From: Ornithinibacillus caprae
GTDB lineage: Bacteria > Bacillota > Bacilli > Bacillales > Amphibacillaceae
DNA length: 64,000 nucleotides
Assembly (NCBI RefSeq): GCF_009728145.1
Contig: NZ_WOCA01000007.1
Coordinates: 62,001 to 126,000, forward strand
Direction of reading: 5' to 3'
The translations under genes and the position numbers were made by a program. The stretch's first letter is position 1. The number at the start of each line of letters is the position of its first letter. Positions 3,696 through 46,704 of the stretch are shown here, one piece after another. Under the pieces are notes generated by a model, which saw only the letters and a program-made list of their open reading frames with translations, did not search any database and was not told the origin of the DNA.

Positions 3696-4786
3696 ACATA
3701 CTCCCCCTGATCAATTGGAAAGCTTCCCTTTACAATAAACTGGCTGTTTGTTTGATAAACCTCAACTTTCCCACCTATCTCTTCCACTCGTTTTTTCATG
3801 CTGGTAAGTCCAAAACCATCGGTAAAATTTCTTACCTCATATATAGAATTTGTTATATCAAAGGAAATATCTCCTATTGCAGATTTACCTAGAATGATGT
3901 GTATTTCTCTTGATTGAGCATGACGCATAGCATTTGTCAGTGCTTCTTGAATTACTCGATATAAAACTACACTCTGATCGTTAGAAAGTTTAACAGATAA
4001 CACGCCTTGCTGCGTTGTAAATTGAACCCTAATATGGCTTTCTGCTTCTAATCTACGAATTAAATGTATTACCGTAGCAATACCCTCATTCTCATCCGAC
4101 TGTAATGCCTTTACTGCATGCCTAGTTTCCTCTAGGCTTTCATTAGCCATTCGCTTTAACTCTCGATAAGAATCTTTCTTTTCCTGTATGGCTAATATCT
4201 CTAGCTGCATAATCAAAGCTGTTAATCTATGTCCAACAGAGTCATGAATATCGCGTGCAATCCGATTACGTTCCTGTAGCCTGGTATCCTCTTCAGCAAC
4301 CAAATTCATCCGTTTAAACTTTCGATATTCGCTTAAAAGTTGATCGTAGATTTCGATTTGCTCTTGCCGTTCATTCGTTAATCGATTCAACGAAATGATA
4401 AAGAAGTAAAAAAGCGCGAGCATAAGGATAACCTCTATAAAATTACTTCTGTGATACAGAGCCAAGCCACCAATTATGATGAAATTAACTATGAGATAGT
4501 ACAGCTCTTGGCTACCCCTCAACTGAAATGCTGAAATAGCTGTAACAAATAGGATGATTAAAAACGTAATAAAAGTCTCATCCATTAATAGTATACTATG
4601 TATCATCGTGACTAATGATAGACCTATGTAAAGAAATAGCAGCATCCGTTCTAAGGATAAGAAGAAAAACAGAGTGACTGCTATTGAAAAAATGAATATA
4701 CTTAAAGAAAGTTGTGGGCTGTATTGCCAAATCATATAAGCCCACAATAGGACAAATAAGCTAAAACGAAGCAAAAAAATCTTCAC
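3683..4786 (-). CDS. Membrane sensor histidine kinase (HisKA_3 type)
   Basis: This is the sensor kinase partner of the overlapping response regulator. The first ~135 residues form five or six closely packed membrane helices with almost no extracellular loop. That is typical of intramembrane-sensing LnrJ/DesK/LiaS-like kinases. A coiled linker leads to the dimerisation domain with the phosphoryl-accepting His at about 181 (ARDIHDSVGHRLT). The ATPase domain follows, with an N box (EALTNAMRHA) near 282 and a DGFGLTSM glycine box. The start is GTG at 4786 with AAGGGTGG upstream. It lies 15 bp after the stop of the amidohydrolase gene, so both may be transcribed together. Confidence 0.9.
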   Translation of the reverse strand: MKIFLLRFSLFVLLWAYMIWQYSPQLSLSIFIFSIAVTLFFFLSLERMLLFLYIGLSLVTMIHSILLMDETFITFLIILFVTAISAFQLRGSQELYYLIVNFIIIGGLALYHRSNFIEVILMLALFYFFIISLNRLTNERQEQIEIYDQLLSEYRKFKRMNLVAEEDTRLQERNRIARDIHDSVGHRLTALIMQLEILAIQEKKDSYRELKRMANESLEETRHAVKALQSDENEGIATVIHLIRRLEAESHIRVQFTTQQGVLSVKLSNDQSVVLYRVIQEALTNAMRHAQSREIHIILGKSAIGDISFDITNSIYEVRNFTDGFGLTSMKKRVEEIGGKVEVYQTNSQFIVKGSFPIDQGEYVCGG

Positions 4787-18290: not shown

Positions 18291-18440
18291 AAGACCAACC
18301 TCCTAAAGGAAGTTGGTCAGCCAATTTAGTATTCAATAGCCACCTATGCCGTATTTTCATAAAAAGTTTTAAACCACCACTTCACCAAAGTGGGTGTTTG
18401 CAGAAACCTTCCTGCCTTCCGCTCTTGACGGCACGACATT
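18291..18440. other. Non-coding stretch with hairpins, possible transposon end remnant
   Basis: After the array, GACCAAC / GTTGGTC (18291-18317) forms one hairpin. On the minus strand, CCACTT-N5-AAGTGG near 18380 lies beside a purine-rich GAGCGGAAGGCAGGAAGG. This looks like the 3' end of an IS200/IS605-type element, but no transposase fragment is visible and the match is from memory only. No gene is seen from 18207 to 18596. Confidence 0.2.
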
Positions 18441-18596
18441 AGAGCTTCAATGTAAAACTCCCTATTATCTCATTAGAGGTTAAAACTTAAATAAATACGA
18501 ACATCGTAGCTTGTTTATATATTACTATGGTTAGGGACATATATCAATGTTAATTCCAACCAATACTGGAAAATGAGTGAATCAGCCTATATTCAC

Positions 18597-29517: not shown

Positions 29518-32157
29518 CTATTTACTTCTATGCATAAACACTTTAACTACCTCCATAAGCAATACGGAACCTATAGCTAAGCCTGTAGCAACTATCCATT
29601 CATTCCAGCCAAATGTTGTTGGAATAGCAAATACCTCACGCGCAAATGGCATAATGGTAATACTATATAAAACGAAACATACTGCAACAGCACCAAGTAC
29701 ATATTTATTACTAAACACCCCAACTCCAACAATGGACTGGGAGTTGGAACGTGCCGTAAAAGTCTGTAATGTTCTAGCTAATATTAATGTAGTAAATGCC
29801 ATCGCTACACCCATCTCAGCGGAGTGCTGTAATCCAATATAATGAGATATAATAACAGCAATCCCAATTAAAATACCTCTTGTTAAAACAGCTCTCATTG
29901 TTCCGCCTGCAAAAATTCCTTCATCAACATGGCGTGGTTTTCTTTTCATAACATCTGGTTCTGATTTCTCCATTCCTAAAGCGATTGCCGGAAGCGAATC
30001 ATTCACTAGGTTGATAAATAACAATTGCAGTGCAGTAAATGGATTTGACCAGTTCAGAATGACTGCAAATAAGATGGCAATAATCGCACCGAGGTTACCA
30101 GCAAATAAATAACCGATTGCTTTTTTAATATTATCAAATACCGTACGTCCAACACCTACTGCATTAACAATAGATACGAAATTATCATCCGTTAAAATCA
30201 TAGCTGATGAATCCTTCGCAACATCTGTTCCACTACCCATAGCAATTCCTATATCAGCTTGTTTTAATGCGGGTGCATCGTTAACACCATCGCCTGTCAT
30301 CGCGGTAATTTTTCCATTTTTCTGCCAAGCTCGTACAATTCGTATTTTATTTTCAGGAGAAACACGTGCATATACGGATATTTGTCCAAGTTTTTCTTCT
30401 AATTCCTTATCAGACATCGCATCTAGTTCTTGACCTGTAACTGCGATGTCATCTTCTTCCATCAATCCAATATCTCGACCAATTGCTTGAGCAGTGGTCT
30501 TATGGTCACCTGTAATCATAATGGTACGGATACCTGCTTTTTTCGACTCCTCAATAGAATCATACACCGCTTCTCTAGGAGGATCGATCATTGCAGTAAG
30601 TCCAACTAGTACTAAATCATATTCATCTTCTTCGGAAATGGTTGATTGGTCCTGTGGGATTTGTTTATATCCAAAAGCAAGTACTCGCAAAGCATGATTT
30701 GAATAATCCTCATTTGCTTGTTCAAATAGGTTCAATAGTTCGTCATCAATCGATTCTTCTTTACCATCCCAAAAAACATGGGATGCACGACGATACATAA
30801 CATCGGGCCCACCTTTGGTAAGCATTAACCGCTTACCATCTATCGTATGCACTGTTGACATTAGCTTTCGGTCGGAATCAAAGGGTATTTCCACTTCCCG
30901 TTCATACTTATCTCTAATTTCCTGGTAGTTTTTATTATTTTTATTAACAAAATTAATTAATGCTACCTCTGTTGGATCACCGATCTCTTTTTCATCCTTA
31001 TTGATATAAGAATCATTACAAAGTGCAGCGATATGGACTAATATTTTTTCTGCTTCCGACCAATCATCAGGATTTTCTGGTAATTTTTCTTTTTGATTAC
31101 CGGGTAAAAAATGATTGGTAACGGTCATCTTATTCTGGGTTAATGTTCCAGTCTTGTCCGTACAGATGACACTCGTTGAGCCAAGCGTTTCCACTGCTGG
31201 CAGTTTCCGAATTATGGCATGCTGTTTGGCCATTTTATTTGTTCCAACAGAAAGTACAATTGTTACAATGGAAGAAAGTGCCTCCGGAATGGCAGCAACT
31301 GCAACAGCAACTGCGAACATTAATGCATTTAAAATAGCTGTCGTTGTGTCTACTGTATCTCCACCAAACCATATTCTTCCTACCTGTAAAGCAAAAATCA
31401 GAATACACAAAAGTAATATCCCTAAACCTAATCTCTTACTAAATACCTCTAGTTTTTGTTGAAGTGGGGTTTGTTTTGCCTCAGCAGTTGCAATCAATCC
31501 TGCAATTTTACCAATCTCTGTTTTCTCAGCGGTCCCTGTTACAACAAATGTTCCTCGACCATAAACTACAAGTGAACTACTAAAAACCATATTGAAACGA
31601 TCACCTAAAGCTACTTCGTCTGGGATCGCATCCACACTCTTTTCAACTGCTTCGGATTCTCCAGTTAACATCCCCTCATTCACTTTTAGTGAGCCACTAT
31701 CAATAATTCTTCCATCAGCTGGAACATAATCACCAGCCTCTAAAAACACAATATCTCCAGGTACTAATTCTCTAGCTGGAATCGATTGCTTCGTTCCATT
31801 ACGAATAACTTTCGCTTCTGGAGCAGACATATCTCTCAATGCATCTAGTGAACTCTCAGCCTTTTTCGTTTGTACAACACTAATAACGGAATTTAATATT
31901 AAGACTAAAAAGATAATGACAGATTCAACGATCTCACCTAAAACAAGCTGTACCCCTGCTGCAATTAACAGTACAATTACCATGGGATCTTTAAATGTTT
32001 CTAAAAATAGCTTCCAGGTTGATACTTTTTCTTTATCTGCAATTTCATTGTATCCTTCTTGCTCTATTCTTTTTTGCACTTCTTCATTGGTGAGACCTTT
32101 TTCCGAAGCGTTAACTGTATCTAATACTTCAGCGGCAGTTCTACGATAAAATTCCAT
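29518..32157 (-). CDS. P-type calcium-transporting ATPase (LMCA1/YloB-like)
   Basis: This cation pump of the P2A group has 879 residues and ten expected helices. The phosphorylation site is ICTDKTGTLTQNKMTV, with the actuator loop LTGESEAVEK, nucleotide domain KGGPDVMYRRA and hinge MTGDGVNDAPALKQADIGIAMG. Helix 4 carries IPEALSSIVTIVLSVGTN, the form seen in the Listeria calcium pump LMCA1. Calcium export is therefore the best guess. The ATG follows AAAGGAG. It is preceded by a long structured leader with its own terminator, so expression is probably controlled by attenuation, perhaps by a metal. Confidence 0.9.
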   Translation of the reverse strand: MEFYRRTAAEVLDTVNASEKGLTNEEVQKRIEQEGYNEIADKEKVSTWKLFLETFKDPMVIVLLIAAGVQLVLGEIVESVIIFLVLILNSVISVVQTKKAESSLDALRDMSAPEAKVIRNGTKQSIPARELVPGDIVFLEAGDYVPADGRIIDSGSLKVNEGMLTGESEAVEKSVDAIPDEVALGDRFNMVFSSSLVVYGRGTFVVTGTAEKTEIGKIAGLIATAEAKQTPLQQKLEVFSKRLGLGILLLCILIFALQVGRIWFGGDTVDTTTAILNALMFAVAVAVAAIPEALSSIVTIVLSVGTNKMAKQHAIIRKLPAVETLGSTSVICTDKTGTLTQNKMTVTNHFLPGNQKEKLPENPDDWSEAEKILVHIAALCNDSYINKDEKEIGDPTEVALINFVNKNNKNYQEIRDKYEREVEIPFDSDRKLMSTVHTIDGKRLMLTKGGPDVMYRRASHVFWDGKEESIDDELLNLFEQANEDYSNHALRVLAFGYKQIPQDQSTISEEDEYDLVLVGLTAMIDPPREAVYDSIEESKKAGIRTIMITGDHKTTAQAIGRDIGLMEEDDIAVTGQELDAMSDKELEEKLGQISVYARVSPENKIRIVRAWQKNGKITAMTGDGVNDAPALKQADIGIAMGSGTDVAKDSSAMILTDDNFVSIVNAVGVGRTVFDNIKKAIGYLFAGNLGAIIAILFAVILNWSNPFTALQLLFINLVNDSLPAIALGMEKSEPDVMKRKPRHVDEGIFAGGTMRAVLTRGILIGIAVIISHYIGLQHSAEMGVAMAFTTLILARTLQTFTARSNSQSIVGVGVFSNKYVLGAVAVCFVLYSITIMPFAREVFAIPTTFGWNEWIVATGLAIGSVLLMEVVKVFMHRSK

Positions 32158-32221
32158 GAAAAAACTCCTTTCATTATGTAGTATCCCAATTTTTCACAAA
32201 TCTATCTTCCATGTAAACAAA

Positions 32222-32500
32222 AAGACCTCTACCCTAAAAATGGGCGAGGTCTCACTAAGTGAATCTTTAATCATTGGGAGTTCTTTCAACCCACCGATTA
32301 TTTAGAGATGAACGAATCGGATATTTACTGGCTGTTAATCCTCACCTAGCTCGCTTTAAAGTCCATATTTTCGGATCACACAGCCTTTTATATTTAATGG
32401 ACACGTCATGTAAATGACTTTATATTTGGGAGTTAATAACCCAAACGTTACTCTACAATGACAATCGTCAAGGTTTATTCGGATATATCCATATTATACC
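32222..32500 (-). ncRNA. Structured 5' leader of the P-type ATPase, candidate riboswitch
   Basis: On the minus strand an extended -10 box, TGGTATAAT, near 32490 would start a leader of about 330 nt. Strong pairings are visible. TTTGGG / CCCAAA lies near 32430, and GTCAT / ATGAC near 32410. A long stem of GGCTGT..GATCC with GGATT.ACAGCC joins 32373-32385 with 32330-32341. CCGATT / AATCGG follows, then a competing GCGAG / CTCGC. The last hairpin, AGACCTC / GAGGTCT followed by TTTTTG (32220-32254), is a terminator about 65 nt before the start codon. CTCGC overlaps the 5' arm of that terminator, so two folds compete. GCUAGGUGAGG recalls the M-box, but the rest does not fit. Confidence 0.5.
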
Positions 32501-32594
32501 ATTAGTATTTTACAAAAGCATAATTCTAATTTCCCCTTGACATCTTTATTTAAGAAGTGTAAGTTAATTATTATAATTTAATATTTTTACAATT

Positions 32595-32743
32595 CTTATC
32601 CAGAGAGGTGGAGGGACTGGCCCTTTGAAGCCTCAGCAACAGACCATAATGGGTACTGTGCTAATTCCAGAAGCATTATGCTTGAAGATAAGAAGAGCGA
32701 TCGGTGTAAAATCAACCTCTTCTTATCTAAGAAGAGGTTTTTT
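32595..32743 (+). ncRNA. SAM-I (S-box) riboswitch with terminator
   Basis: The conserved core reads CTTATCCAGAGAGGTGGAGG, then GGGACTGGCCC, GAAGCCTCAGCAAC, GTGCTAATTCC and closing GATAAG. The palindromic terminator AACCTCTTCTTA / TAAGAAGAGGTT (32714-32739) with T tail follows. When S-adenosylmethionine is high, transcription stops before the downstream methionine synthase gene. A TTGACA box at 32537 is the likely -35 element; its -10 (TAAGTT) is weak. Confidence 0.95.
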
Positions 32744-32782: not shown

Positions 32783-33889
32783 ATGACAACAACTCTAACA
32801 AAGGCACCATACCGTGCCGACCATGTAGGAAGTTTACTAAGACCTGAGGTTTTACACCAAGCCAGAAAGGATTATAAAGACGGTAAAATTTCAGCTTCCG
32901 AGTTACGTGAAGTTGAAAATCAAGAAATTAAACGTGTCGTAGACAAACAAATTGAAATTGGACTAGACGTCGTTACAGATGGGGAGTTTAGACGAACATG
33001 GTTCCACTTAGACTTCTTAGAACACCTAAACGGAATCGAAGGCTATGTACCAGAACAAGGATATCAATTTGAAGGATTAGAAACAGAAAAGTATGACGTA
33101 AGAAACACAGGAAAAATCTCCTTTAATCCGGATCACCCTTTTATCAAGGACTTTGCTGAATTAAATCATTTTGTGGATGGACGCGCAATTGCAAAACAAA
33201 CTATTCCAAGTCCAAACCAACTGTTTAACAAAGGCATTTACAACCCTGACATTTATCCAGACATTGAAGATTATGCAGCTGATATTATTACGACCTATCA
33301 AGATGCAATCCAAGCTTTCTATAATGCTGGAGTACGTTACTTACAATTAGATGACGTGTATATAGCTGGACTATCATCTCCGAAAATTCCATTTAACGAT
33401 GGAAAGTATACTAGAGAATACTTAATTGATCTTGCATTACGGGTTGCTAATGGTGCACTAGAAAATAAACCAGCGGATTTAGTTGTTACGACACATCTTT
33501 GTCGTGGTAACTATCAATCTACTTGGGCATTTGAAGGAAGTTATGCACTTATAGCACCAACTCTATTAGCTAAAGAAAATGTCGATGGTTTCTTCCTTGA
33601 ATATGATGATGAAAGATCAGGAACATTCCAGCCATTAGAACATATTCCAACAGAAGGACCTCGTGTTGTCCTTGGCCTAATTACATCGAAAAGTGGAGAA
33701 TTAGAAGATAAAGAATTAATTAAAGCACGTATTAATGAAGCAGCAAAATATGTACCATTAGATCAATTATGCCTAAGCCCACAGTGCGGATTTGCTTCTA
33801 CACACCATGGAAACAAACTAACTGAAGATGAGCAATGGGCTAAATTAAAATTCGTAGTAGACATAGCTGAGGAAATATGGAATAAGTAA
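32783..33889 (+). CDS. Short MetE-like methionine synthase (YxjG/YxjH type)
   Basis: This protein resembles the catalytic C-terminal half of cobalamin-independent methionine synthase. It probably transfers a methyl group to homocysteine or a related thiol. Zinc ligands are visible as His and Cys in TTHLCRGNY and Cys in LSPQCGFAST. The N-terminus YRADHVGSLLRPEVL is typical of YxjG/YxjH. The 368-residue length matches that group (about 375) and lacks the MetE N-terminal half. The ATG follows AAAGGAG. Control by the SAM-I riboswitch is the same as for yxjG and yxjH in B. subtilis. Confidence 0.92.
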   Translation: MTTTLTKAPYRADHVGSLLRPEVLHQARKDYKDGKISASELREVENQEIKRVVDKQIEIGLDVVTDGEFRRTWFHLDFLEHLNGIEGYVPEQGYQFEGLETEKYDVRNTGKISFNPDHPFIKDFAELNHFVDGRAIAKQTIPSPNQLFNKGIYNPDIYPDIEDYAADIITTYQDAIQAFYNAGVRYLQLDDVYIAGLSSPKIPFNDGKYTREYLIDLALRVANGALENKPADLVVTTHLCRGNYQSTWAFEGSYALIAPTLLAKENVDGFFLEYDDERSGTFQPLEHIPTEGPRVVLGLITSKSGELEDKELIKARINEAAKYVPLDQLCLSPQCGFASTHHGNKLTEDEQWAKLKFVVDIAEEIWNK

Positions 33890-33898
33890 TTGAAGCTT

Positions 33899-33936
33899 CA
33901 ATCAGTCAGGGGGTTCTTCATCCCCCACTGATTGTT
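33899..33936 (+). terminator. Probable terminator after the methionine synthase gene
   Basis: The stem CAATCAGT..GGGG / CCCC..ACTGATTG is strong, but the T tail is short (TTTGC). Confidence 0.55.
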
Positions 33937-33975
33937 TGCACCTTAATGCTATGACCTAAAGGCCACTGAACAAAT

Positions 33976-34065
33976 CGGACATTTACGGGTAGCCCGCGCC
34001 CCAAGTTAACCTTCTTAGTTTTACCTCGTAGGTTTGAAGTGGGGGGGCTTACGACGCACAGGACG
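33976..34065. other. Structured non-coding element sharing a motif with the ATPase leader
   Basis: This contains AAATCGGACATTTACGGG, also found with small changes at 32314-32332, in the same orientation. In both places a long imperfect hairpin follows. Here CCCCAAGTTAACC pairs with GGTTTGAAGTGGGG (to 34053). A GCAC..GTGC hairpin lies downstream near 34065. No gene is seen from 33890 to 34318. The element may be the end of an old mobile element or an RNA. Confidence 0.4.
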
Positions 34066-34209
34066 TGCTAGTGACGATAATGCGATAGGACTTGGCCAGT
34101 TATATGCGGGACAAATAACCTCAGCAAGCTTTTTAAATCTAGTAAAAAAACATTCACTTTTCTAGTAATGATTGGTATTCTTTAGTATATAATATATAAT
34201 GTGAAATTA

Positions 34210-46530: not shown

Positions 46531-46561
46531 AAAGAGACGCCTATTAGTAGACGTCTCTTTA
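46531..46561. terminator. Bidirectional terminator
   Basis: AAAGAGACG pairs with CGTCTCTTT. It lies between the SDR gene and the HAD gene. Confidence 0.75.
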
Positions 46562-46704
46562 TACGTATATTTGTGGCGAAGAATCATGTGGTTCACATGC
46601 ACATGTATTACGTTATTCCTCGACTTACACAAATCAGCTCATCGCTATACTAGGATAACATGATTTTCGCTAACAAGATACTGGATTATTCTGGTTAACT
46701 AAAA

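Follow-up and report, generated by a model that had tools for sequence, protein, structure and literature searches.

A probable degenerate yybP-ykoY (Mn2+) riboswitch, apparently interrupted by a small bcr1-like mobile repeat, in the leader of a P-type ATPase gene in Ornithinibacillus caprae

The window (i.e., the whole analyzed stretch of 64,000 nucleotides from one Ornithinibacillus caprae contig) carries on its minus strand a P-type ATPase gene with a leader that lies between an extended -10 promoter (32501-32493) and the ATPase ATG at 32157 (Table 1). The 879-amino-acid product contains the Pfam domains E1-E2_ATPase, Cation_ATPase_N, and Cation_ATPase_C. Among the NCBIfam models, HAD-IC P-type ATPase scored above its cutoff, and the SERCA-, PMR1-, and PMCA-type Ca models scored below theirs. 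The ATPase shares 86% amino acid identity with its same-genus ortholog (L032), which has the same divergent SAM-riboswitch neighbor, in support of synteny. Between the two genes, pN was 0.09 and pS was 0.75 (near saturation), with no internal stops; at codons whose amino acid agreed in three orthologs, 26 of 648 were changed in the window and 15 of 637 on the L032 branch. The extended -10 promoter proposed in an earlier sequence-only reading is present as TGGTATAAT, and 14 bases at the promoter (ATGGTATAATATGG) are identical in L032.

Table 1. Features of the ATPase locus, with strand and supporting evidence
Feature	Position	Strand	Evidence
Cation-transporting P-type ATPase, intact, 879 aa	29518..32157	-	ORF, Pfam, NCBIfam
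Riboswitch-derived 3' flank with intrinsic terminator (TTAGTGAGACCTCGCCC...GGGTAGAGGTCTTTTT)	32219..32258	-	Flank alignment, hairpin z
Worn copy of ~155-bp bcr1-like dispersed repeat	32254..32401	-	blastn, covariance model R1
Degenerate 5' half of yybP-ykoY (Mn2+) riboswitch	32398..32475	-	Leader alignments, R2 match
Extended -10 promoter TGGTATAAT	32493..32501	-	Sequence
SAM riboswitch of divergent metE-like gene	32593..32694	+	RF00162, 93.9 bits

Three Rfam matches reached gathering level in the window, all outside the leader (SAM, 32593-32694; BsrF, 46534-46645; 6S, 18333-18515). The leader itself had no match at the gathering score, including to the M-box (RF00380), yybP-ykoY (RF00080), and NiCo (RF02683), the three families against which the sequence-only reading had proposed a check, and all three were also absent when 501 bases around the leader were searched to an E value of 10. 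The sole names returned by the latter search (His_leader, HIV_GSL3, and RsaA) were far below their cutoffs and were rejected as unrelated. The string GCUAGGUGAGG, in which the sequence-only reading saw a resemblance to part of the M-box, sits within the repeat described below. The intrinsic terminator placed about 65 nt upstream of the start codon was borne out: a hairpin of 11 predicted pairs (32252-32223) finishes at a distance of 65 nt from the ATG. Together with its U-run, it reached -16.3 kcal/mol (z, -5.4), a stability that 0 of 200 shuffles matched, and was the sole strongly nonrandom structure among those tested in the leader. The whole leader (32158-32498) folded at -82.8 kcal/mol (z, -2.1), which 3 of 100 shuffles equalled.

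The class of the leader became apparent from its orthologs. In a search of 101 genomes, 92 had a match to the ATPase at an E value of 1e-150, and 30 loci were among the matches listed; from this set, we used the window's own locus and 25 others at 67 to 86% identity, leaving out L057 to L060 (49 to 52%). A search of named genomes gave 17 loci, of which we used the closest one, L091 from Oceanobacillus piezotolerans (80% identity). A yybP-ykoY (Mn2+) leader was present in 16 of the 26 ATPase orthologs, 15 being recognized by the motif GGGGAGUAGC and one (L055), whose leader lay outside the stretch cut for the motif search, through Rfam and a covariance model of our own (R2; see below). The motif was positive at 15 of 27 loci and negative at the window locus. 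For RF00080 itself, a match immediately preceding the ATPase ortholog was found in 13 genomes (G004, G029, G065, G014, G081, G030, G027, G084, G018, G017, G064, G070, and G012). The leaders of L032 and L091 exceeded the RF00080 gathering score, and those of L049 and L050 were missed by Rfam and found by the motif and R2 only. The remaining 10 orthologs (L036, L038, and L041 to L048) lacked a yybP-ykoY leader. On the basis of the riboswitches of its orthologs, the ATPase is probably a Mn2+ (or Ca2+/Mn2+) exporter. The only RF00080 match of the O. caprae genome lies elsewhere and not before the window ATPase; a yybP-ykoY-like leader before a TerC-family gene in this genome scored 31.7 bits with Rfam (gathering score, 45) and 62 bits with R2. 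By eye, a UUGAC...GUCAA hairpin (with a U-G pair in L040) was read just before GGGGAGUAGC in the leaders of L032, L033, L040, and L091. This hairpin would mask part of the AAAGG strand of P1.1 and is a possible extra layer of control in that clade.

Both flanks of the window leader proved to be similar to these riboswitch leaders. The left flank (32398-32475) had alignment scores of 52, 52, 44, and 38 against L033, L091, L032, and L040, respectively (0 of 500 shuffles as good in each case), and 1 of 500 shuffles was as good for L035 and for L039; against the remaining 9 of 15 leaders the scores were at shuffle level, and significant likeness was thus confined to the closer leaders. The right flank (32219-32258) scored 43 against L091 and 36 against L033 (0 of 500 shuffles each). 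The stretch between them had no clear similarity to any of the 15 leaders (best, L051, with 5 of 500 shuffles). Covariance model R2, built from six leaders (L032, L033, L035, L039, L040, and L091), had its best match in the 64 kb at the window leader (32208-32476; 27.7 bits; E value, 8.3e-7), split by a long insertion, and its second match had 8.7 bits (E value, 0.42). The same model gave 53.7 to 77 bits on ten other riboswitch-bearing loci and left the leaders of the ten riboswitch-less orthologs empty (an 18-bit match in L044 lies inside the gene). With filters off over 2 kb, the window match splits into pieces of 18.2 bits (E value, 1.8e-5) and 8.1 bits (E value, 0.02), of which the latter overlaps the repeat and is outranked by two matches at the terminator of the SAM leader. 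The sequence-only reading had named yybP-ykoY and set it aside; the orthologous leaders and the R2 match identify it as the ancestral class.

Much of the riboswitch has been lost. The 15 leaders share 52 invariant columns, of which the window leader with its flanks joined retains 29 and has altered 15; the other 8, CGGC among them, are missing. Four of seven letters survive in GUCGUCA, which we take to be the metal-binding loop. The conserved yybP-ykoY motif set (GGGGAGUAGC, GUCGUCA, and CGGC) is not preserved in the window leader; a terminator overlapping the 3' strand of P1.1, also a yybP-ykoY feature, is found there. In the P1.1 register, the window has one of five pairs, compared with five of five in 14 orthologs and four of five in one (n = 15). 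If the leader were still a working Mn2+ riboswitch in which the insertion is tolerated, its yybP-ykoY descent, the retained invariant positions, and the intact terminator would all be expected, but the loss of P1.1 pairs, of CGGC, and of three letters of GUCGUCA makes this very unlikely. The idea of a ligand-switch leader therefore stands as to its ancestry and falls as to a new or intact switch, given the loss of core positions and P1.1 and the inserted repeat.

The inserted stretch belongs to a dispersed repeat family. Its part at 32257-32348 is well supported by blastn to dispersed copies, and its left boundary is uncertain. When 61 genomes were searched with window positions 32100-32560, the full-length match was in the own genome only, and 13 genomes had some match at an E value of 0.001; 11 of these (own included) matched the dispersed stretch 32257-32348, and the other two (G040 and G042) matched the terminator stretch only, at a site that in G040 coincides with an RF00080 match. 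We chose 18 copies with recognizable ends (copies with nested inserts or unclear ends were not among them) and aligned 17, leaving out a 129-nt copy from L008. Sixteen of the 18 begin with TTTAT and all 18 finish with CACTTTAT, these ends being selection criteria; the window copy itself has lost both TTTAT ends. The aligned copies form three covarying helices with 94.7% of cells paired, and in 14 of 31 pairs both partners have changed; for each of the five measures used, 0 of 500 shuffles did as well. A covariance model (R1) of these 17 copies, in which the window copy was not used for training, matched positions 32254-32401 with 69.1 bits (E value, 1e-15). Folded by itself, this copy did not stand out from shuffles (z, -0.75), 47 of 200 of which equalled it. 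In the own genome, R1 had at least 45 matches over many contigs at an E value of 0.001 (150 of 1,403 candidates scored); the window copy ranks 29th among the matches listed, the best of which has 175.2 bits. Matches occurred in at least 53 of 101 genomes at an E value of 1e-4 (at most 29 candidates scored per genome) and, at an E value of 1e-6, in at least 19 of 151 genomes sampled from the class (at most 19 scored), with the own genome included in both counts. A blastn search of 72,556 plasmids with one repeat copy found partial relatives in five records (from Peribacillus, Cytobacillus, Niallia, and Pseudalkalibacillus), and five loci with intact copies (L002, L004, L014, L016, and L024) had no Rfam match at gathering level. 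These data also bear on the view that the leader is a new, unrelated riboswitch for a metal or another ligand. Such a switch would fit the lack of a noteworthy Rfam match to an E value of 10 and a leader fold better than most shuffles; it is nevertheless extremely unlikely, because the leader aligns to yybP-ykoY leaders on either side of a middle part that belongs to a repeat matched so many times in the genome.

Several further observations concern the repeat family. A second, more worn copy (33885-34072, minus strand; 26.9 bits; E value, 8e-5) lies next to where the metE-like gene ends. Copies in L017, L025, L012, L022, and L020 contain small nested insertions, which are palindromic in L017 and L025. 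At two sites of the own genome (C5:116669-116723 and C35:95218-95272), both end patterns of the repeat occur 55 bp apart from end to end, apparently marking derivatives that keep little besides the ends. Runs of repeat matches with a period of about 153 to 156 bp, overlapping through the TTTAT end, were seen in G020 and G078. An autonomous partner was sought in two genomes via unpaired ends. In the own genome, no such ends formed a long pair; in G020, the pattern used for the left end misfits the ends of the copies and had no match. Searches of the open-licence PMC literature with selected terms showed, by title or opening of the abstract, neither a MITE in a riboswitch nor such a repeat family.

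The left junction of the insert is less sharply drawn. On sequence alone, the left arm was matched as well by 178 of 300 shuffles when compared with the repeat and by 126 of 300 when compared with the riboswitch, and the loop piece by 133 of 300 and 17 of 300, respectively. Because the left arm is not significant and the loop piece is slightly riboswitch-like, the left junction is unsure. R2 aligns AUGGACUUUAAAG to the riboswitch, in competition with its assignment to the left arm of the repeat; since the right arm offers pairing partners for both GGCUGU and GAUCC, we judge that AUGGACUUUAAAG is better regarded as the repeat left arm than as riboswitch. Where the window departs from the riboswitch, 5 of the 15 leaders (L033, L035, L039, L040, and L091) read CGGCTTTATTG, and L032 does not. 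As CGGCTTTATTG contains TTTAT, like the ends of the repeat, the repeat likely inserted at TTTAT in the CGGCUUUAUUGG segment. In G020 (L014), a tandem of two identical copies, spaced 153 bp apart in the same orientation, has one TTTAT common to both, which is consistent with a target duplication of TTTAT. The insertion into the aptamer of the ATPase leader was seen in one genome only.

Two hairpins had been described as mutually exclusive. This exclusivity did not rise above chance. Upstream of the terminator arm CCUCGCC, its best partner is GGUGAGG, the right arm of the repeat, with seven contiguous pairs at -13.0 kcal/mol; in tests of duplex energy and arm pairing that also miss 15 genuine riboswitch leaders run as controls, and so weigh little either way, this energy was equalled in 93 of 1,000 shuffled leaders, and upstream pairing of the arm was 0.40, a value reached or exceeded by 146 of 200 shuffles. 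The equilibrium fold of the full leader pairs the arm downstream with a probability of 0.87 to 1 per base. On this partner, the intact terminator, and the purifying selection on the ATPase one could build a co-option of the repeat, in which GGUGAGG with CCUCGCC forms a new antiterminator and the leader acts as a rewired switch or a tuned attenuator. We consider this unlikely: besides the shuffle result and the preference of the equilibrium fold for the other arm of the terminator, GGTGAGG also occurs in the repeat copy of L007, making it an ordinary arm variant that need not have arisen here, and the arrangement is known from one genome. It is likewise improbable that the repeat replaced the ligand-binding part of the Mn riboswitch and supplies GGUGAGG as the antiterminator of a differently controlled attenuator. 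If true, this would be an RNA switch rewired by transposition, from a metal switch to such an attenuator.

The order of events could also have been the reverse, with the repeat entering an already dead leader and with the remnant and terminator irrelevant to present regulation (e.g., the repeat affecting mRNA stability only). Absence of the riboswitch is common (10 of 26 orthologs), no repeat was found in those 10 leaders at an E value of 0.01 (by a search to which the worn copy in L056 also escaped notice), and bcr repeats often form part of UTRs (PMC3446304). The terminator and the -10 element are still well preserved, however, and this course is highly improbable. In L042 and L043, the same search of ortholog loci placed repeat copies some 1 kb upstream. 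Separately, in L056, from another genus (G064), a decayed repeat (4198-4339, plus strand; 20.4 bits; E value, 4e-5 in 601 bases) lies between the riboswitch and the ATPase start, in the orientation opposite to that of the gene, and a further copy lies downstream of the gene (1302-1454).

The homology of the flanks to orthologous riboswitch leaders, the identity of the insert, the loss of P1.1 complementarity, and the retention of the terminator are direct observations. Taken together, they make it most likely that the leader descends from a yybP-ykoY (Mn2+) riboswitch that has degenerated and into which a small bcr1-like mobile repeat has been inserted, against which it can be said that RF00080 itself is unmatched in the leader and that many orthologs have no riboswitch anyway. 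The yoaB gene encodes a P-type ATPase. In the yoaB-type riboswitch of Lactococcus lactis, Mn2+ stabilizes P1.1 and thereby prevents the terminator, for which the invariable A41 is needed (PMC9190785, PMC11087558); the metal site of yybP-ykoY, at the docked L1 and L3 loops, requires this A41 (PMC9190785). By this mechanism, and with P1.1 lost, the window leader should terminate regardless of Mn2+. We infer the following course for the degenerate riboswitch. Ancestrally, Mn2+ binding would have stabilized P1.1 (AAAGG with CCUUU) and blocked the terminator, so that the exporter ATPase was made at high Mn2+. The repeat would then have entered the aptamer within its 3' half, probably at TTTAT of the CGGCUUUAUUGG segment, after which adjoining riboswitch sequence would have been lost and both halves would have drifted. 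The promoter, terminator, and ribosome-binding site survive, with P1.1 and the invariant CGGC gone, and the present behavior would most likely be partial termination independent of Mn2+, with a constant low read-through. Given a worn repeat copy and an ATPase under purifying selection, expression of the ATPase probably continued, by read-through or from another promoter.

The locus illustrates a possible death of a regulatory RNA: once a repeat has entered the aptamer, the sensor is lost before the promoter and the terminator are. It also serves as a warning that strong structure and a terminator before a transporter gene can be the wreckage of a known riboswitch plus a repeat. Furthermore, it draws attention to a family of repeats in Bacilli that occurs in two ATPase leaders (those of the window and L056) and for which the five loci searched had no Rfam match.

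Bcr repeats of the Bacillus cereus group were reportedly the subject of a 2004 study by Okstad. Other papers give a length of 147 to 167 bp for bcr1 (PMC2267715), link its mobility in this group to a TTTAT motif (PMC6542083), and call bcr1 to bcr3 MITE-like and often located in UTRs (PMC3446304). The window repeat resembles bcr1 and the group A bcr repeats in its length of about 155 bp, TTTAT motif, stem-loops, tens of copies, and UTR location. Whereas published descriptions confine bcr1 to the B. cereus group, the window repeat occurs in the window's family and other Bacilli. With regard to yybP-ykoY (RF00080; transcriptional, yoaB type), the window leader differs in its lost P1.1 pairing, absent CGGC, altered GUCGUCA, and mobile repeat in the 3' half, and in the Rfam model being unmatched to an E value of 10. 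It agrees with yybP-ykoY in its position before an ATPase gene, the remnants of the 5' motif, the terminator hairpin, the placement of the promoter, and the GAGACC strand common to P1.1 and the terminator.
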